16,295 nt of DNA from Candidatus Micrarchaeum sp. (GTDB lineage Archaea; SpSt-1190; DYHY01), in NCBI GenBank assembly GCA_020723935.1, contig DYHY01000019.1:1-16295 (forward strand). The letters run 5' to 3'. A program made the translations under genes and the position numbers. The notes under the pieces are model-generated. The model made no database searches and was not told where the DNA came from. It saw nothing but the letters and a program-made list of their open reading frames with translations. The first letter of the stretch is position 1. The number at the start of each line of letters is the position of its first letter. Positions 4,248 to 15,895 of the stretch are shown here, piece after piece.

Positions 4248-4627
4248 AGTTCGTCCCCCGGATGGCGTCGCTCATCCAGGCGCTCCATTCCGTCGCCCTC
4301 TCCCTCATGGGCGCCCTCTTCGGCCTCGCGGTGAGGCCCGAGATCGCCGAGAACCTCCCGATAGCCGACCTCGTGTTCTCCTCCTCGACCGCCTACACCC
4401 TCTTCGCCCTGGTCCTCGTGACGACGATGGGCGCGATCCTCCTGCGCTCCAACAGGTTCGGCGGCTTCTGGGGGGTGACCGGCGGCGCCCTCTCCCTCGC
4501 CGGTGGCGCGATGATGATAATCGCGACATCCTACTGGTTCCTCGGGACGATCCCCGGCGCCGTCATGATAATCCTCTCGCCTTACTTCCATTCGGGCTAC
4601 GAGTCGATGATGCCCAAAAGGTACTAG
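4244..4627 (+). CDS. Small integral membrane protein, 127 aa
   Basis: I do not recognise a family. After a short basic N-terminus (MKFVPR) the protein is almost wholly hydrophobic, with three or four membrane segments at roughly residues 8-30, 42-66, 74-95 and 97-113, and a polar, lysine/arginine-containing C-terminus (MMPKRY). The start ATG overlaps the TGA of the HAD phosphatase gene, so it belongs to that operon. A pyrimidine-rich tract follows its TAG stop (4641-4652) and may terminate transcription before the convergent ATPase pseudogene. Confidence 0.75.
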   Translation: MKFVPRMASLIQALHSVALSLMGALFGLAVRPEIAENLPIADLVFSSSTAYTLFALVLVTTMGAILLRSNRFGGFWGVTGGALSLAGGAMMIIATSYWFLGTIPGAVMIILSPYFHSGYESMMPKRY

Positions 4628-4640
4628 TCCCGGGCGCGGG

Positions 4641-4652
4641 CTTCTTTTCTTC
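4641..4652 (+). terminator. Possible T-rich terminator
   Basis: CTTCTTTTCTTC sits in the 34-nt gap between two convergent transcription units. Archaeal RNA polymerase stops at T-rich tracts on the non-template strand, so this could end the HAD/membrane-protein operon. Confidence 0.35.
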
Positions 4653-5100
4653 CGGCCTCCCTTACTGGGAAACGGCCTGCCGGTTCTGCAGCTTCGCCCG
4701 CTCGACGTCCCCCATCCAGCGCGCGAGCCATTTGCGCGCCTCCTCCATCAGGAACACGGCCGGGGCGAGCATGTAGAGGAAGAGGAGGTCCTTCCTGGTG
4801 AGCGCCGCGGTCCCGAAGGCGGGCTGGAGGAACGGGACGTAGACGAGGCAGAGCATCAGGGCGGTCTGGGCCGCGATCCCCGCGAAAAGCCACTTGTTCC
4901 GCCCGACGTCCAGGGCGAGCGCCGAGCCGCGCGTCGTCCGCGTGGCGAAGAGGTTCCCGATCTGCGCCGCCATGATCCCTACCATTATCCCGGCAGTCCC
5001 CCGCGCGTAGATCGCCGGGTCGCTGACGATCCTCTGGCCGAGCGCCCAGCCGGCCTCGCCCCACACCCCGAAGACCCGGCGCAGGAGCGCTATCGAGACG

Positions 5101-5108
5101 AAGGAAGG
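5101..5108. repeat. 4-bp tandem duplication (AAGG AAGG) causing ATPase frameshift
   Basis: Removing one AAGG copy restores the minus-strand reading YIGAFVSIALLRRVFGVW across the break, joining two well-conserved transmembrane parts. Confidence 0.6.
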
Positions 5109-6747
5109 CACCTATGTAGGCGGCCCTCATGAGCGACTTGACGCCGAGGAGGCTGTTGTTCTTCCTCGGCGCCTTGGCCATGATGTTCTGCTTGGGCGGC
5201 TCCATTATGAGGGAGAGTGACGGGGGGACGTCCATTGCCAGGTCTATCGCTATTATCTGCATCACGAGGAGCGGGAGGGGGATTCCCAGGAGCATGAAGG
5301 CGATGAAGGTCCCGAGTTCCGCCATGTTGTGCGTGAAGATGTAGCCGACGAACTTCCTGAGGTTGTCGAAGCCCGTCCGGCCCAACCTTATCGCCTCGAC
5401 GATCGAGACGAAGTTGTTGTCCAGGAGTATCATGTCCGCCGACTAGCGGGCCACGTCCGTCCCGCCCACCCCCATCGCTATCCCCACGTTCGCCTCCAGG
5501 AGCGCGGGCGCGTCGTTCACCCTGTCGCCCGTGACGCCGACGATCTCGCCCTGGGCCATCAGCGCCTGGACGATCCCCAGCTTCTGCTCCAGGAGGATCC
5601 TAGCGAAGACGACGTCCCTGTGCCCGAGCGCGCTCTTGAGATCCTCCCGGCTCATCTTCGCGAGCTCGTGGCCCGTGACGACCCTCGGGTCCGGCATGGA
5701 AACGACCCCGAGGCGGTGGGCAATAGTCCTCGCCGTGAGCTCGTGGTCGCCAGTCATCATTACGATCCGTATCCCCCCGCGCTGGGCTTCCGCGAGGGCC
5801 TCCTTGACGCGCGGGCGCGGCGGATCGGCGAGGGCCGCCCTGCCGACGAAGGTCATTCCCGACTCCACTTCCTCCGGAGCCTTTTCGCGTGCCGCGCGGG
5901 GAAGCTCCCTCTCGGCCAGGCCTATCACGCGGTAGCCCTGGGAGGTGAAATCGTCCATCTGGCACAGGGTCGCCTCCCGCGCGCCTTGGGCGAGGGGCAC
6001 GGCCCTGCCGCCGGAAAGAGCTGAGGAGCATTTCTCGAGGAGCTCCCTGCACGCGCCCTTCGAATATGCGAAGAACCTGCCGTCCGCCGCCCTCCGGTGG
6101 ACGCTCGTCATCATACGCCTCTTCGAAGTGAACAGGATAAGGTGGGCCCGCGGCTCGGCGGAAGGATCCTCCTGCGCGCCGAAGAAGCCCTCTTTCATGG
6201 CGAAGGCCAGGAACGCGCCGTCGGTCGGATCGCCGAAAAGGGCCCACCTGCCCCCCGCCTTCCCGTCGGCCGGGGGGTTGAGCTTGGCTTTGTTGCAGAA
6301 CGCCGAGATCCTGAAGATGCGGGCGAGGTGGGCCTTCTCGGCCTCGTCGAAATCCCTCCCGGAGGTGGTTATGAGCCTGACGGGCGAATGGCCGTCCCCT
6401 GTCGCGTTGAAGAGCCGCCCGTCCGACTAGGCGCGCTTGATCATCATCTCGCCGCTAGTCATCGTCCCCGTCTTGTCGACGCACAGGACCGTCATCGCGC
6501 CGAGGGTCTCGATAGCCGAGGGGCGCTTGATGACCGCGTTCCTCCTCGCCATGTTCCTAGTGGTGAGCGCGAGGGAGACGGTGAGCTGGAGGCCCTGGGG
6601 GACGAGGGACATCATCACCCTGATAGCGAAGAGGATGCTGTTAGCGACGTTCAGGCCGAGGAACGCGAGGGCTATCGCGAAGAACGATGTCGCCACCGCC
6701 ACAATCATCGTGAGCTTCGCGCTGTTGCCTATCTCCTGCTCGAGGGG

Positions 6748-6755
6748 GCTCGCTC
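6748..6755. repeat. 4-bp tandem duplication (GCTC GCTC) causing ATPase frameshift
   Basis: Removing one GCTC copy restores the minus-strand reading FERTSPLEQEIGNSAKLTM, which is what the family shows before the third membrane segment. Confidence 0.7.
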
Positions 6756-7607
6756 GTGCGCTCGAAGAGGGCGGCTATCTGGCCTATCTGGGAATCCGCC
6801 CCGGTGTAGACGACGACGCCCTTCGCAATCCTGGTCGCGACGGTCGTCCCGGCGAAGACGATGTTCGGGAGCTTCGCGAGGTCGTCCGCGTGCTCGTGCG
6901 AATGCGGGATCGCGTCGCCTGACCGCGCGCCTAGAGGCGCGATTCCCCGGTGAGGAGGGCGTTGTTCACCCGGACGTCGAAGGCGCTCACGAGCCTGATG
7001 TCGGCAGGGACCTCGTCGCCCTCCTCGAGGAGGACGAAGTCGCCAGGGACGATGCCGGACACGTCGATGTGCCCGGTCCTCCCGTCCCGCACGACCTTGA
7101 CCTTCCTCGGGATGAGCATCGTCACGGCCTGGACGAGCTTTTCCGCCCGGTATTCCTGGACGATGTTGAAGACGGCGTTCAGGACGACGACGCCGAGGAT
7201 GACGAAGCCGGACCGAATCAAGGTGGGGTCAGAATAGGCGACCCCGCTGAAGAACGAGAGGGCGGCCGCGAGGAGCAGCATCACGTTGAAGAGGTTCCTT
7301 ATCTAGAGGAGGAACTTCTTGAGGTGGCCGTCCTTCTTCGCCACCTGGGGCGTGTTCGGGCCGCGTGCTCCGCGAGCCTGCGGGCGGCTTCCGCGCCCGA
7401 AAGGCCGCCCTCCCCCGTCCCGAAAGCCCTGTAGAGCTCGGCGGCGCTAGCGGTGGCGTGCGCCCTGTAGCGGACGGCCTGGCTGTGCGCAGGATCCTGG
7501 CCGTGCGGGCCGGCTTTCAGCGGAGCCGGAGAAGGGGCGGAAGCAGCGGCGCGGTGTGAGACTGTGATGTCGTCAGAAGGCATAGGGTGGTCTTGGTTTT
7601 TCCAGTC

Positions 7608-7615
7608 GGTATACC
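7608..7615 (-). promoter_or_regulatory. TATA-like box of the ATPase pseudogene
   Basis: GGTATACC is centred about 28 nt before the ATG at 7583 on the minus strand. The spacing matches the window's intact genes, so the promoter has not visibly decayed. Confidence 0.55.
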
Positions 7616-7650
7616 GGCAACCCCTCCTGAGGCAGGTCCAGTCCGGAGGG

Positions 7651-7658
7651 GTATAAAC
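7651..7658 (+). promoter_or_regulatory. TATA box for the APC permease
   Basis: GTATAAAC predicts a transcription start near 7680. This is about 70 nt before the best start codon, so this gene, unlike its neighbours, would have a real 5' leader. Confidence 0.55.
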
Positions 7659-7748
7659 GCATTTCCGACGGCAAAACCGGAGGCCCGAGGCCTGAATCCG
7701 AGAAAGGCCCGTAAAAGGTGCGTCTTTCCCAGCGAAAGGGACAAATGC

Positions 7749-9095
7749 ATGTTTGCGTCCGTAAGCCGCGGGATGAGAAGGCGGCTTTCCTTTTCCGCTA
7801 GCAAGGCGGTCGGGCCCGGCAAAAGGGATGGCGGCGGCTCCAACCATCTGGCGAGATCTATGGGCCTCCTTGACGCGACCGCCCTCGGGATAGGCTCGAT
7901 AATCGGCGCGGGGATATTCGTCGTCCTAGGGGTCGCCTATTCCGTCGCGGGGCCGGCGGTCCTCGTCTCGGTCGTCCTCGCCGGAATCGCCGCCGCCCTG
8001 ACGGGCTATTCCTACTCCTTCCTCGCCCGACGCATACCGAGGGAGGGGGGCGCGTACGAGTTCGCGCACGAGATCCTGGGCTCCGGGGCGGGCTTCCTCA
8101 CCGGGTTCGTCTGGATTGTCTCAAACGTCGTCGCCCTCGCCGCGGTGTCCCTGGGCTTCGGCCACTATTTCTCGGCGTTCTCCGGCCTGCCGGTGGTTCC
8201 TGTCGCCCTCGCCGCCTGCGCCCTCGCGATAGGGGCGAACCTCCTCCCGGTCGGCAAGTCCGCCGGGATGAACAACGCCCTCGTCGCGGTCAAGCTCGCG
8301 ATCCTCGCGCTCTTCGTCCTGGCGGGCCTGTTCTTCGTCAAGCCCGCGCACTTCTCCCGGCCCGCCTTCGCCCCGGCCGGCTGGGGAGGGATAGTTGCGG
8401 GCGCGGGGCTCGTCTTCTTCGCGTTCGGAGGCTTCGCCCGGATAACGACCGCCTCCGAGGAGGTGCGCGACCCCAAGCGCACGATCCCCCTCGCCATTTT
8501 CCTGGGGATCGGGATCTCCGCGCTCCTCTACTTGCTGATAGCTCCCGTCTCGATAGGCCTTCTGAGCTACGGCCCCGACCAGCCCAAGGACTTCCTCGCG
8601 CAGGCGGCCGCATCTACGGGCCTCCCGCTCCTCCCGCAGCTCATGGCCCTCGGCGCCCTCATCGCGACCTTCAACGTCCTCCTGACAACGCTCCTGGGCC
8701 TTTCAAGGATAATCTTCGCGATGGCGAGGAACTACGACCTCCCCAGGCCCCTCGCCGACGTCTCGGATTCCGGGGTGCCGTGGAAATCCGTCCTCTTCGG
8801 CGGGATTGCGGCGCTCGCGCTGACATTGGTCGGGGACCTCGGCCTCGTCGTCGGGATAAGCAGCTTCGCGATGCTCTGCTACTACGGGTCAACGAACCTC
8901 GCGGCCGCGAAGCTTTCCAGGGGTTTTGGCAGGGTCCTGAATCTCCTGGGCCTCGTCTCCTGCCTGATCCTCGCGCTCTCGCTCCCGGGCGAATCGATAG
9001 CGATCGGCGCCCTCTCCCTCCTCGCGGGCGGCGCGTACTACCTTCTCGTCGTCTTCCCGGCGGCGAGGCGCGGCATAGCGAACATCAGGGCGTAG
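7749..9095 (+). CDS. APC-family amino-acid permease
   Basis: The protein (about 448 residues from ATG 7749) has about 12 predicted membrane helices. It shows APC-superfamily landmarks: the first helix with GIGSIIGAGIFV (unwound GxG substrate site), REGGAYEF after helix 2, FFAFGGF in the helix-6 region, and ASEEVRDPKRTIPLAI, the family's classic cytoplasmic loop signature. It should import amino acids or exchange related solutes across the cytoplasmic membrane; the substrate is not readable. The start is uncertain: the frame is open from 7587, but the TATA box at 7651 excludes the upstream starts. ATG at 7749 and ATG at 7773 are both possible. The 3' end overlaps the convergent gene at 9038-9448 by 58 nt. 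Confidence 0.9.
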   Translation: MFASVSRGMRRRLSFSASKAVGPGKRDGGGSNHLARSMGLLDATALGIGSIIGAGIFVVLGVAYSVAGPAVLVSVVLAGIAAALTGYSYSFLARRIPREGGAYEFAHEILGSGAGFLTGFVWIVSNVVALAAVSLGFGHYFSAFSGLPVVPVALAACALAIGANLLPVGKSAGMNNALVAVKLAILALFVLAGLFFVKPAHFSRPAFAPAGWGGIVAGAGLVFFAFGGFARITTASEEVRDPKRTIPLAIFLGIGISALLYLLIAPVSIGLLSYGPDQPKDFLAQAAASTGLPLLPQLMALGALIATFNVLLTTLLGLSRIIFAMARNYDLPRPLADVSDSGVPWKSVLFGGIAALALTLVGDLGLVVGISSFAMLCYYGSTNLAAAKLSRGFGRVLNLLGLVSCLILALSLPGESIAIGALSLLAGGAYYLLVVFPAARRGIANIRA

Positions 9096-9537: not shown

Positions 9538-9951
9538 ATGCCAAGATCCGGCTTCCGGGAAAAATCCCTCGAGGAGGCCCGAAGGCTCCTGCGGGAACTG
9601 CGCGAGACGGATTTGCCGATCCTCGTCGAGGGAAGGAACGATGAGAAAGCTTTAAGAAGCCTTGGCATCACGGCCGAGGTGCGAAGGATCCAGGAATCTG
9701 GGCCCGTCGCGGTGACGGTTTGGGACCTGAAGAGAAAGGGCCGCAAAGCCGCAATCATACTGACAGATCCTGACAGGGAGGGCGCGAAGATCGCGCGCCT
9801 CGCCGCCTCGGCACTCGAGGATTCCGGGATACACCCAGAGGTGCGCTACCGGAAGATGACACGGCTCTTCGGCAAATCGGCCGTGGAGCAGCTGGGAAAG
9901 GTAGCAGCGGAAGAGAATGAAGCGGAAGCGTCCGAAGGGATGCTTCGATAG
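9538..9951 (+). CDS. Small stand-alone Toprim-domain protein (archaeal UPF0292-like)
   Basis: The 137-residue protein is essentially one Toprim domain: [11 protein letters not shown] with the conserved Glu (E31) and Gly, and LTDPDREG with the DxD pair (D77, D79) and E81. These acidic residues bind Mg2+ in primases, topoisomerases and RNase M5-type nucleases. Small proteins of this layout are widespread in archaea and lack an assigned function. A charged C-terminal tail ([12 protein letters not shown]) follows. The ATG sits about 29 nt downstream of a TATA-like box; in-frame sequence further upstream belongs to the divergent promoter. DnaG, another Toprim protein, starts 82 nt downstream on the same strand, with no clear promoter between them, so co-transcription is likely. 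Confidence 0.85.
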
Positions 9952-10033
9952 CGCGTCGGTGTGGCTTGCGTTTTTGGGGTCCGCGGGCTCGTCCCATGCC
10001 GTGCGGTACGGAACGGAAGTGAATGAAGAGAAC

Positions 10034-11374
10034 ATGGGAAAGATAGCACCGGTGTCTTCGAAGTACATAGTAAAGGCGCAGATCCAGGCGAACGGGGTCA
10101 TTGAGAAGCCCGACGTGGTCGGGGCGATCTTCGGCCAGACGGAGGGTCTTCTCGGTAACGACCTCGAGCTAAGAGAGCTCCAGCGGTCCGGAAGGATAGG
10201 GAGGATAGAGGTCACTGTCGACTCCAAGAGCGGCAGGACTAGCGGCCTCATTGAGATCCCGTCCAGCATGGACAAGGCCGAGACGGCGATAATCGCGGCG
10301 GCCCTGGAGACGATAGATCGAGTCGGACCCTGCACGGCGACAATAAAGGTCGTCGGGGTGGACGACGTGCGCATCTCCAAGCGGAGGCTCATAATCAACA
10401 GGGCGAAGGACATCCTGAAGGACTTGGTCAACGACACCCTTCCGGACACCCAGGAGCTCACGGACGCGGTCCGCGAGTCCGTGCGCATAGGCGAGATAAT
10501 CGAATGGGGCCCGGACAAGATGCCCGCCGGCGCGGGGGTCCTTGACAGCGACGAGATAATCGTCGTCGAGGGCAGGGCCGACGTCGTGAACCTCCTGAGG
10601 AACGGGATAAAGAACTGCATAGCGATAGGCGGAACGCACGTTCCCAAGAGCCTCGGAGAGCTCTCCAAGAGGAAGACGGTGACGCTCTTCCTTGACGGGG
10701 ACCGTGGAGGGGACCTGATTTTCAAGGAGGTCAAACAGATAGCGGAGATAGACTACGTCTCCCGCGCCCCGGCTGGGAAGGAGGTGGAGGAGCTTGAGAA
10801 GAAGGAGATCCACAAGTGCCTCAGGGCGCGCGTGGCGGTCGAGCAGGTGGGCGAGAACCTCCAGGACATACCGAGCGCAAGCTCGATAGCCGAGGAGCCT
10901 TCCAACGAGGACGCGCCTTCCGAGAACGGCGGCTACCGCCAGCAGCAGCAACAGCACGCCCAGCAGCAACAGCAACAGCAGCAGGCCTTCCAGCAGGAGC
11001 AGGAGCAGGAGCAGCAGCGGCAGCAGCCGATGCCGCCCCAGCAGCCGCCCGCCGAGCAGAAGCCGGTCGAGCTGGACGCGACGCACAGGGAGACCTTCAG
11101 GAGGCTCGTCGACGAGATCGTCGGCACCAGGGGCGCATACCTCCTGGACAGCCAGCTGCAGATCCTGGGCCGCGTGCCGATAGCAGAACTTCAGCGCAGC
11201 CTCGAGGGCCTGGAGGGCGTCGAGGACGTCGTCCTGGACGGCGTGATAACCTCGCGCCTGCTGGACATGCTCAAGAGCAAGCCGATAAAGTACGTTGTCG
11301 GGATGAGGAAGATAAACGTCGGATTCGTCCCCGAGGGCGTGCAGCTCGTGACCCCGCAGGACCTCGGCCTCTGA
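10034..11374 (+). CDS. dnaG: Archaeal DnaG primase-like protein with glutamine-rich linker
   Basis: The N-terminal region (residues 1-160) is the conserved archaeal DnaG domain, recognisable from [17 protein letters not shown] and [13 protein letters not shown]. The Toprim domain follows (about 170-265) with VVEGRADV (E179) and FLDGDRGG (D221, D223), the catalytic acidic residues. The C-terminal domain starts near 345. Archaeal DnaG has primase activity and is also a stable subunit of the RNA exosome, which it joins through its C-terminal domain and Csl4. Residues 303-331 are an unusual run with 23 glutamines between the two domains. ATG at 10034 matches the family start (MGKIAP); an in-frame GTG at 10019 and ATG at 9917 are less likely. 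It is probably co-transcribed with the small Toprim gene. Confidence 0.95.
10940..11026 (+). repeat. CAG/CAA glutamine-codon tract in dnaG
   Basis: About 29 codons, 23 of them CAG or CAA, broken by His, Ala, Phe, Glu and Arg codons and followed by a Pro/Gln stretch. CAG and CAA are mixed, so it is not a pure trinucleotide microsatellite. Confidence 0.9.
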
Positions 11375-11486: not shown

Positions 11487-11510
11487 CTGGCAAGGGTGCC
11501 ACTCCCGGCA

Positions 11511-12176
11511 ATGGCAACCCAAAGGACACCTGCAATCGCTATGGCATTCACCGCAATATTCGCCCTAGCCTTCATGCTGCTTTCGGCCGGCTTCTCCGCG
11601 CCGGTCCTGTCATGCGCGAGCCCCTGCGTCTCGGGGAGCGCGTGCGCGTGCGCCATAACCTCCTGCCCCTCGGGGACCCTGATATACACGGACCCGGTCT
11701 CCGGCGTCCCGATAGGAGCCATCTCGATCTCCGGCGGGACGGCGTCATGGACTGCTCCTTCCGTCGCGACCTACAAGCTCCAGGCCAACTGCGCGGGAGC
11801 CCTTTCCAACGTCCTCGTGGAGGAGACAGCGAAGGTCGCCCCGCCCAAGGCGCCTGAGACGGCCGTGACGCCCGACACTCCCGTGACGCCCGCAACAACT
11901 CCTGTTCCCGGCACCCCTGGCACCCCTGGCACCCCTGGCACCCCTTTGCCTGACAATCCCGTTGCCTGCACCGAGGAAGCCAAGATATGCCCCGACGGAT
12001 CCTCCGTCGGAAGGACCGGCCCCGACTGCGAGTTCGCTCCCTGCCCCGGCGGCGCTCCGGCAAACCCGGCTCCGCCAGCCAGCCCTCCCAAGAGGACGTT
12101 CCTGCAGAGCGTCGGGGACGTTGTGACCGCCCCGTTCAGGTGGTTCCTCGGGCTCTTCGGCTGGGGCAAGAAATAG
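11511..12176 (+). CDS. Secreted cysteine-containing protein with Pro/Thr repeat linker
   Basis: The 221-residue protein starts with a signal peptide (hydrophobic AIAMAFTAIFALAFMLLSAG). A cysteine-rich domain follows (CASPCVSGSACAC, ITSC), then a small beta-like part (ISISGGTASWTAPSVATYKL). A linker rich in Pro and Thr includes four exact GTP repeats (about residues 134-145). A second Cys module, CPDGSSVGRTGPDC followed by EFAPCPG, resembles a short cysteine motif found in many secreted proteins of uncultured archaea and bacteria. The C-terminus ends in an aromatic amphipathic segment (FRWFLGLFGWGKK) that may touch the membrane. Function is unknown; a surface or adhesion role is only a guess. 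The ATG is leaderless by promoter spacing. Confidence 0.8.
   Translation: MATQRTPAIAMAFTAIFALAFMLLSAGFSAPVLSCASPCVSGSACACAITSCPSGTLIYTDPVSGVPIGAISISGGTASWTAPSVATYKLQANCAGALSNVLVEETAKVAPPKAPETAVTPDTPVTPATTPVPGTPGTPGTPGTPLPDNPVACTEEAKICPDGSSVGRTGPDCEFAPCPGGAPANPAPPASPPKRTFLQSVGDVVTAPFRWFLGLFGWGKK
11910..11945 (+). repeat. Four perfect 9-bp tandem repeats (GGCACCCCT)
   Basis: The repeats encode GTP four times in the secreted protein's linker. The unit is a multiple of three, so copy number can vary without a frameshift. Confidence 0.9.
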
Positions 12177-13322: not shown

Positions 13323-13330
13323 GTATAAAT
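13323..13330 (+). promoter_or_regulatory. TATA box for the rhomboid gene
   Basis: GTATAAAT predicts transcription from about 13353, just upstream of the ATG at 13363. Nothing else is recognisable in the gap 13227-13362. Confidence 0.6.
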
Positions 13331-13362: not shown

Positions 13363-14481
13363 ATGGCGCGAGGACGAAACATGGCAACGGACGCTCCCCC
13401 GGCCGCGCAGGCTCCCGAAGCTCCCCGGCCGCGCAGGCTCCCGAAGCTCCCCGGTCTCCCGAAGCTCCCCCTGGCGACCCTCTACCTCTTCTCCGGGATC
13501 CTCTTCGTCTACTACCTCTCGGTCAACTTCCTTCCCTTCATCTCCCCCAACTACGACATCCTCTCGAGCCTCGGCCTGCATTTCAACGCGCCCTGGTCCA
13601 TCTTCACGTACATGTTCATACACCTCTGGCCCAGCCACCTGATAGTGGACGCGCTCCTGCTCCTCGTCTTCGGGGTGATCGTGGAGAACAGGGTCGGCGG
13701 CTGGAAGATGCTGATAATCTTCCTCTCCAGCGGCTTCATAGGCGGCCTCGTCAACCTCTTCTTCTTCCCGACCAAGATCCTGATAGGCTCCAGCGGCGCC
13801 GTCTTCGGCCTGATCGGGGCGGCGATAGTCCTTCACCCCTTCCTGTCCTTCTCCCTCTTCGCCCTCTCCCTCAACGTCTTCGCCCCAATTGTCACGATCG
13901 CCGTCGACAACGCGGAGGCCGCGTTCGTCCAGAAGGTCGTCGGCGAGCGCGAGAACCTGGCATATTTCGACGAGGCGCTCCAGGAGAAGATAGGCGCCCT
14001 CTCCGTCCAGCGCGAGGCGGTCAACAGGAGCCTTGAGCGCACGCAAGACGCCCTGCAGGGCCAGGAGGAGTCCCTCGCGAAGCTGCAGGCCGACTACCGC
14101 GCCGGGCGCGTGAGCAGGGACACTTTCGAGAAGCTCTCAGCGCAGCTGGTCTCCTCAATCTCCACCCTCAAGGCGAACGTCACGCGGAACACCCAGGTGA
14201 TGACCCTTGTCAGCCGCGACATAATACAGGCGCACCAGGACAGGCTGCAGGTCGCAACCGAGCGCGTCGACGTCGAGGAAAAGGCGGTGCAGCTGGAGTT
14301 CTCCCAGCAGACGAGGGAGGCGACCCCGCAGGCCGCATGGCCGCATTCAGTCGGCCTGCTCGTGGGCGCGATAGCGCTCTTCGCCCTCAGGAAGGAGACC
14401 TTCCTAGAATGGGAGGGCAAATACGACGCGATAACGGGGTTCGTCCTCAGGAAGAAGCCCGAAAAAAAGCCCCGGCCTTAG
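13363..14481 (+). CDS. Rhomboid-family intramembrane serine protease with coiled-coil insertion
   Basis: The 372-residue protein has a Pro-rich basic N-terminus, then the rhomboid core: TM1 (LYLFSGILFVYYLSV), TM2 with MFIHLWPSHLIVDALLLLVFG (H87, H92, and D96 where most rhomboids have Asn), TM3, TM4 with GSSGAVFG (catalytic S144), TM5, and a last helix with PHSVGLLVG (catalytic H328, matching the family's HxxGxxxG). Rhomboids cut transmembrane substrates within the membrane. Ser and His are 184 residues apart instead of about 50 because about 130-140 mainly charged helical residues (about 186-325), with coiled-coil character, are inserted between TM5 and TM6. The start is at ATG 13363 from TATA spacing; ATG 13381 is also possible. 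Confidence 0.88.
   Translation: MARGRNMATDAPPAAQAPEAPRPRRLPKLPGLPKLPLATLYLFSGILFVYYLSVNFLPFISPNYDILSSLGLHFNAPWSIFTYMFIHLWPSHLIVDALLLLVFGVIVENRVGGWKMLIIFLSSGFIGGLVNLFFFPTKILIGSSGAVFGLIGAAIVLHPFLSFSLFALSLNVFAPIVTIAVDNAEAAFVQKVVGERENLAYFDEALQEKIGALSVQREAVNRSLERTQDALQGQEESLAKLQADYRAGRVSRDTFEKLSAQLVSSISTLKANVTRNTQVMTLVSRDIIQAHQDRLQVATERVDVEEKAVQLEFSQQTREATPQAAWPHSVGLLVGAIALFALRKETFLEWEGKYDAITGFVLRKKPEKKPRP
13401..13452 (+). repeat. 26-bp tandem duplication inside the rhomboid N-terminus
   Basis: The unit starting GGCCGCGCAGGCTCCCGAAG occurs twice back to back (13401-13426, 13427-13452), and an 18-nt partial copy follows. The length is not a multiple of three, so the two copies are read in different frames (AAQAPEAP, then PRRLPKLP). 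Confidence 0.9.
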
Positions 14482-14527: not shown

Positions 14528-14536
14528 CTATAAATA
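14528..14536 (+). promoter_or_regulatory. TATA box for the HerA-like gene
   Basis: CTATAAATA is centred 26 nt before the ATG at 14558. This makes an in-frame TTG at 14543 an unlikely start. Confidence 0.65.
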
Positions 14537-14557
14537 ACGGCCTTGCGTCCCCGCGGC

Positions 14558-15895
14558 ATGCGGGAAATTCTTGTCGGCCGGGACGAGGAGGACCAGAAGA
14601 AGTTCGGCATGGAGGCGACGGGCTTCCTCGGCAAGCACTACGTCAAGACCGGCGACGAGATAAACCTCTCCGGCGAGGTCTTCATGGACCTCTCGCGCCC
14701 GCACGTCATGCTCATCTGCGGCAAGCGGGGCACGGGCAAGTCCTACACCCTCGGCGTCATAGCTGAGGAGATAAACTTCCTCCCCGAGAAGCAGAAGAAG
14801 TCGGTCGCCGTCCTCATCTTCGACCTCATGGGGATCTTCTGGACGATGAAGTTCGCTAACCTCAAGGATTCCGCGATCCTGAAGAACTGGGGCTTGGAGG
14901 GCAAGGCCCTCTCGGACGTGAACATTGTCGTCCCCTACGGGCACATGGAGCAGTTCACGAAGGCCGGGATCCCGGTGGACGTCGGCTTCTCCCTGCGCCC
15001 CTCGGAGCTCTCGGCGCAGGACCTTGGCATAGTTTTCGGCTTCAACCAGAACTCCCTTTCGTCGGTCGTCCTCGAGCGCGCGATGAAGTCGGCCCGCGCG
15101 AGGAAGCCCGAGTTCGGGATGGAGGACCTCATGGCCGAGGTGCGGGCGGACCAGACAGTGGATCCCCCCGTGCGCCTCGCCGTCGAGAACAAGCTCTCGG
15201 CCGCGATAGACTGGGGCCTCTTCCACGAGAGCGGGACGCCCCTCAAGGACATCATAAAGCCGGGCAAGATAAACATCCTGGACATCTCGCCCTACAGCTC
15301 GGCGATAGGGAGCTGGTCCATCAGGGCCCTCGTGATAGGCATACTCTCCAAGAAGATCTTCCAGGCGAGGACCGGGGCGAGGAAGTTCGAGGAGGTGCGC
15401 ACGCTCAACGCGGCCAAGCACCCGCTCCTGGAGCACGACACAGGCGAGAAGGAGATCCCGATGGTCTGGATATTCATTGACGAGGCCCATGAGGTCTTGC
15501 CCCGCGAGGGCTCAACGCCCGCGACCGAGCCGCTCCTCCAGGTCATAAGGGAAGGCAGGCAGCCGGGGATAACCCTCGTTGTCGCGACCCAACAGCCGGG
15601 GAAGCTCCACACGGACGTGATGTCGCAGTGCGACCTCGTCCTCGCCCACCGCGTGACATCCATCCCCGACATCGAGGCACTCAACAAGATAATGGCCAAC
15701 TACATGATCTTCACCCTCGAGAAATACCTCTCAGGCCTGCCGCGCGTCAAGGGCTCGGCAGTCCTCCTGGACGACAACAGCGAGAAGGTCTACGCAATAC
15801 GCACCCGCCCGCGCCTCACCTGGCACGGCGGCGAGTCGGCATCCCTCCTCTCGGGCAAGATCGAGCACGAGGACACGATGCCCCCGCCCGAATAG
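14558..15895 (+). CDS. HerA/DUF87-type hexameric P-loop ATPase
   Basis: The 445-residue protein belongs to the HerA/FtsK ATPase group. It has Walker A GKRGTGKS (G55-S62), Walker B WIFIDEAHEVLP (D308, E309), a LLQVIREGRQPGITLV segment with the arginines expected near the subunit interface, and ATQQPGKLHTDV as sensor region. HerA proteins form hexameric rings that move DNA. In many archaea HerA works with the nuclease NurA and with Mre11-Rad50 in end resection. None of those genes lie here, and the short N-terminus lacks an obvious HAS-barrel, so this may be a HerA paralogue rather than the resection helicase. The ATG is fixed by the TATA box. A short gap with no recognisable element precedes htpX. 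Confidence 0.88.
   Translation: MREILVGRDEEDQKKFGMEATGFLGKHYVKTGDEINLSGEVFMDLSRPHVMLICGKRGTGKSYTLGVIAEEINFLPEKQKKSVAVLIFDLMGIFWTMKFANLKDSAILKNWGLEGKALSDVNIVVPYGHMEQFTKAGIPVDVGFSLRPSELSAQDLGIVFGFNQNSLSSVVLERAMKSARARKPEFGMEDLMAEVRADQTVDPPVRLAVENKLSAAIDWGLFHESGTPLKDIIKPGKINILDISPYSSAIGSWSIRALVIGILSKKIFQARTGARKFEEVRTLNAAKHPLLEHDTGEKEIPMVWIFIDEAHEVLPREGSTPATEPLLQVIREGRQPGITLVVATQQPGKLHTDVMSQCDLVLAHRVTSIPDIEALNKIMANYMIFTLEKYLSGLPRVKGSAVLLDDNSEKVYAIRTRPRLTWHGGESASLLSGKIEHEDTMPPPE

Follow-up and report, generated by a model that had tools for sequence, protein, structure and literature searches.

From our analysis of the 16,295-nucleotide window (the whole stretch of DNA analysed, from Candidatus Micrarchaeum sp.), a 366-residue protein, P0001, encoded on the + strand at 13381..14481, was predicted to be a rhomboid intramembrane serine protease in which an antiparallel coiled-coil hairpin, with arms of about 65 residues each, connects the fifth and sixth transmembrane helices (TM5 and TM6). 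Our preferred reading, to which we give a rough probability of 0.62, is that of an active rhomboid whose hairpin stands outside the membrane as a rigid and probably N-glycosylated arm and selects or limits substrates at the gate. The hairpin rhomboid is a real and conserved variant of a known enzyme family which, as far as the papers show, is undescribed in the open literature searched. The titles and opening parts of abstracts of open-access papers on rhomboids, coiled coils, and archaea contained no description of an insert of such kind, and the open-access literature yielded neither a paper pairing rhomboids with Altiarchaeota nor a described function for the hairpin rhomboid. The gene is counted here from the ATG at 13381, and the upstream ATG at 13363 is an equally possible start; an earlier note on this DNA had numbered from the latter, and its S144 and H328 correspond to S138 and H322 in our numbering. 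A TATA-like element (TATAAAT, 13324..13330, + strand), recognised by pattern match only, is the putative promoter of the gene.

P0001 matched the Pfam Rhomboid profile PF01694 with 74.9 bits against a cut-off of 22.6 and was the sole rhomboid match in the window genome. The match covers residues 71-173 only, ending at this point because the insert begins there. Along with the profile score, the other marks of PF01694 rhomboids (the GxSx serine with the TM6 histidine, and the TM2 histidine) were all found. The catalytic residues Ser138 (GSSG, TM4; 13792..13794, + strand) and His322 (14344-14346), with which TM6 starts (14344..14388, + strand), as well as the TM2 residue His86 (13636..13638, + strand), which is equivalent to the oxyanion-hole residue H150 of GlpG, are invariant in the 26 insert rhomboids and in the 34 other rhomboids compared (26/26 and 34/34 each). 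Glu102 and Gly136 are also invariant in the 26-member alignment (A2). At the position of GlpG N154, P0001 has Asp90 (13648..13650, + strand), as does its relative L003; the usual Asn, which is not defining for the family, is found in 24/26 insert rhomboids. The position of GlpG Y205, which adjoins the active site, is occupied by Ser, Ala, or Cys in most insert rhomboids outside the window's phylum and by an aromatic residue or Met in ordinary rhomboids. We infer that P0001 is a catalytically competent rhomboid protease, its activity being putative.

Ser138 and His322 are 184 residues apart, as the earlier note had counted, compared with 53 between S201 and H254 of E. coli GlpG. The note had also taken the protein for a genuine rhomboid carrying an extended coiled coil in its TM5-TM6 loop, adjoining the gate, and this reading is upheld here. 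The stretch concerned (13906-14343, residues 176-321) had been described as free of Gly and Pro, which is wrong: Gly occurs at 188, 205, 227, and 242 and Pro at 316 and 321, with Gly242 falling at what is predicted as the tip of the hairpin and the two prolines sitting at its base. It had also been taken for a single unbroken coiled coil; the model instead gives an antiparallel two-arm hairpin with a turn at residues 241-245, and since the turn is present in both of our AlphaFold2 models, an unbroken parallel coiled coil was ruled out.

AlphaFold2 was run on P0001 together with 15 further rows of its alignment and then, separately, on L068, a protein of Candidatus Altiarchaeota isolate CSMAG_2918, which is the same protein as that of G001, a genome in the family of the window genome. 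In the P0001 model, a helix at 156-240, a break at 241-245, and a helix at 246-336 follow one another, and the arrangement predicted for L068 is the same. TM5 (residues 156-175; 13846..13905, + strand) is modelled with a low pLDDT of 65-71. The ascending arm (residues 176-240; 13906..14100, + strand) reaches a pLDDT of at least 87 from residue 191 onwards; the turn AGRVS (14101..14115, + strand) is the only place within the insert where the model interrupts the helix; and the descending arm (residues 246-311; 14116..14313, + strand) keeps a pLDDT of at least 87 up to residue 300, the values for residues 201-290 being 92-97. The base REATPQAAWP (residues 312-321; 14314..14343, + strand) lies before TM6 with a pLDDT of 67 and carries a weakly conserved clade motif, which tends towards G-x-[EQ]-x-E..T-P-x-S-x-x-I-H. 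At the junctions of the hairpin with TM5 and TM6, pLDDT was 65-78 in P0001 and lower in L068. With such low values at the junctions, a rigid connection between hairpin and gate is tentative, and a helix running straight through the base is doubtful because Pro316 and Pro321 sit there.

Among solved structures, GlpG was the best fit of both models. Residues 28-339 of the P0001 model aligned with GlpG 92-271 (Z 18.0, rmsd 2.7, 159 residues aligned, for a predicted fold), and the L068 model gave Z 17.3, rmsd 3.1, and 163 residues aligned. The approach of the catalytic histidine to the serine, which the earlier note had proposed to check by structure prediction, is supported by superposition of the model: P0001 superposes on GlpG through TM6, and H322 is predicted to fall onto H254 because model residue 339 pairs with GlpG 271 at the ends of the alignment. 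The hydrophobicity of the arms across the whole family follows a 3.5-residue repeat (z 7.9), which is the coiled-coil value; in P0001 taken alone, the periodicity is weak (p 0.41 and 0.06). Other members carry turn motifs (G-x-I-S/T or N-x-T) around the midpoint of the insert, and three of them (L051, L053, and L055) have a Cys pair flanking the turn. The lengths of the two arms covary with r 0.97, a value biased towards the hairpin idea because some turns, in members without G-x-I-S, were chosen by eye. Searches of Pfam and NCBIfam for a domain within the insert returned chance-level coiled-coil matches only, and the search for a specific solved-structure relative of the insert returned only generic coiled coils (e.g., SMC and PI3K regulatory-subunit segments) with Z values close together.

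We then examined the distribution of the insert. Homologues were searched by protein in 101 archaeal genomes and then by alignment in 394, and a group of about 26 genomes scored above ordinary rhomboids. All the 26 members of alignment A2 carry the insert between TM5 and TM6, with identical column limits and lengths of 56-139 residues, and since homologues in many genomes have it at the same place, the insert is more than chance. In a tree built on the rhomboid core with the insert left out, a branch with 99/99 support separated all the 26 insert rhomboids from the remaining sequences, which comprised 23 ordinary rhomboids of archaea and 11 of bacteria; the insert rhomboids form one distinct clade, found in three archaeal phyla. 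A proline in TM5, Pro169 of P0001 (13885-13887, + strand), is found in 25/26 insert rhomboids and 0/34 others, most of which are gapped in this column. The insert, which the earlier note had called unusual, extends beyond P0001 and is the hallmark of an archaeal clade. The homologues, by which the note had meant to detect a fusion, form one clade and no fusion was found; with the insert in place in all of them, a fusion or assembly artefact was ruled out.

In the phylum of G017, all the 19 genomes examined, from 17 genera, carry the insert rhomboid (19/19). Among the 87 genomes from the phylum of G069, about 21 matched the family profile over almost its whole length, and all of the 12 members examined there have the short form of the insert. 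The window's own phylum, which the identity of L068 with the protein of G001 makes probably Altiarchaeota, has the insert rhomboid in 3/10 genomes. A search of genome contigs with alignment A5 found one Altiarchaeota relative, plus 15 bacterial loci with ordinary rhomboids, and a search of viral contigs for insert rhomboids gave no match.

The inserts are rich in Asn-x-Ser/Thr sequons. We counted 59, against 12.3 +/- 3.1 in shuffles, a test that overstates independence because related members share some sites. The remainder of the 26 proteins has 6 sequons, and the control motifs in the inserts were equally few (reversed motif 7, D-x-S/T 6). Sequon density was 2.6 per 100 aa in the inserts vs 0.2 in ordinary archaeal rhomboids. 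Oligosaccharyltransferases prefer Thr over Ser in sequons, and the ratio of NxT to NxS in the inserts was 44:15. P0001 has two sites in its insert, Asn215 (N-R-S; 14023..14025, + strand) on the ascending arm and Asn266 (N-V-T; 14176..14178, + strand) on the descending arm, which are read from the sequence with the family-wide enrichment behind them; five members have an insert without any sequon. Matches to the STT3/AglB oligosaccharyltransferase were found in 18/26 host genomes, with two in the window genome; STT3 was not found in the other 8/26, several of which are incomplete. Because of the size of the sequon effect and the reversed-motif control, it is likely that the insert is extracytoplasmic and glycosylated. 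The sequons, the positively charged termini, and the known six-TM topology of rhomboids all point to a location outside the cell.

Compared with known systems, the hairpin rhomboid shares with E. coli GlpG and ordinary PF01694 rhomboids the same six-TM fold, the GxSx Ser in TM4, the His in TM6, and the His in TM2. The difference lies in loop 5, which is short and flexible in GlpG and takes the form of the hairpin here, making the Ser-His spacing 131 residues longer. P0001 scored below the cut-off of the GlpG equivalogue TIGR04239 (21.4 bits against 250), and its best NCBIfam match, the rhombosortase TIGR03902, reached 29.3 bits, far below the cut-off of 84, over residues 71-151 only. The iRhoms (iRhom1 and iRhom2), which came up as sequence and fold matches, likewise combine a rhomboid core with a big extra domain outside the membrane. 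The extra domain of the iRhoms is in the TM1-TM2 loop and they are without the catalytic dyad, whereas the dyad of the hairpin rhomboid is intact. Rho2 of Haloferax volcanii, set beside P0001 by description only, is an archaeal rhomboid too; when it is deleted, the S-layer glycoprotein shows changed N-glycosylation at N732, and adhesion and motility change as well, and a coiled coil is unmentioned in that paper (PMC11985538).

In the mechanism that we propose, the short flexible loop-5 cap that lies over the active site of GlpG would be replaced by the two-helix antiparallel hairpin. The hairpin would extend from TM5, the gate helix, and from TM6, which bears the catalytic His, and would stand about 10 nm outside the membrane (∼65 residues per arm at 0.15 nm per residue). 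Such a mast could serve as an ectodomain arm which, outside the chemistry itself, limits or selects the membrane proteins that reach the gate, conceivably by keeping bulky ectodomains or envelope layers away or by docking partners. This screening or docking of substrates is a putative role which we put forward less firmly than the existence of the hairpin. We think an ectodomain arm most likely, ahead of a true lever and then of an oligomerisation arm, because the length and sequence of the arms vary, the catalytic residues are fixed, and the base keeps its weak motif.

In GlpG, TM5 serves as the gate for substrates (PMC3494066; PMC12615303), and its motion is rate-limiting in that enzyme (PMC12615303), which favours a hairpin coupled mechanically to TM5, such that binding or pushing at the tip by an envelope layer, a partner, or a substrate opens or closes the gate. 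The hairpin is predicted to be a continuation of TM5 and TM6, and the clade-specific Pro169 could serve as a hinge. However, the base has low pLDDT and two prolines, and the length of the insert ranges from 56 to 139 residues, so that we regard such a lever or sensor as unlikely. It is similarly unlikely, in our opinion, that a glycosylated mast continuous with the gate helix acts as a built-in lever controlling the active site from about 10 nm outside.

Gene order raises another explanation. In one phylum, we observed a string of genes encoding a coiled-coil transglutaminase-like protein, a geranylgeranyl reductase, the rhomboid, and an NFACT_N protein, often with a PRC-barrel-like gene, named by eye, on the opposite strand (loci L084-L086, L089, L091-L100, L102, and L103). 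An NFACT_N (Rqc2-like) gene lies directly downstream of the rhomboid in 16/17 neighbourhoods of one phylum, and the geranylgeranyl reductase gene lies upstream in 13, which would suit a role of the hairpin rhomboid in membrane-protein quality control, removing faulty membrane proteins after stalled translation. Nevertheless, in both the window and G001 the rhomboid gene has DnaG upstream and a HerA-like ATPase after it instead, the NFACT gene of the window genome is on another contig, and gene order by itself is no proof of a common task; a quality-control role is improbable, and more so than a lever.

The 3.5-residue periodicity would also allow the hairpins of two or more molecules to bundle into a rhomboid complex. 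Yet the intramolecular hairpin of both models would already occupy the hydrophobic stripe, and the variable length and scattered glycan sites would hamper bundling, which makes oligomerisation a quite improbable function of the arm. That the protein is no protease at all (i.e., either a rhomboid-like scaffold without activity or a fusion between an incomplete rhomboid and a coiled-coil membrane protein of unrelated origin) might be argued from the big insert within the core and the Asp at the N154 position, but with an invariant Ser-His dyad in 26/26 members, a GlpG fold predicted through TM6, and a single clade in which insert and core were inherited together, we consider it hardly credible.

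The surroundings of the gene in the window were also inspected. The HerA/DUF87-like ATPase gene directly 3' of the rhomboid gene (14543-15895, + strand), which is conserved in G001, has its own TATA-like element at 14529, and with separate elements before them the two genes may therefore be transcribed apart. The DnaG-type primase (9917-11374, + strand; named by eye) has a long Gln-rich stretch in mid-protein. Two small proteins predicted to be at the surface had no Pfam match, one (284-964, + strand) having a hydrophobic segment at its end, followed by a short polar tail, and the other (11496-12176, + strand) containing a PGTPGTPGTP linker. A P-type cation ATPase (4624-7847, - strand) is split over several reading frames, its E1-E2 ATPase, HAD, and C-terminal parts each falling in a different ORF; either the gene has decayed or the assembly contains errors here.

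The choice of substrates by rhomboids and the control exerted by the TM5 gate and loop 5 are long-running questions for which GlpG has been the main object of study. With a hairpin at the gate in versions of about 56 to 139 residues, the natural clade described here provides a ready length series for questions of gating and ectodomain selection. The hairpin rhomboid also looks like a core gene in one archaeal phylum, where all the 19 genomes examined carry it.
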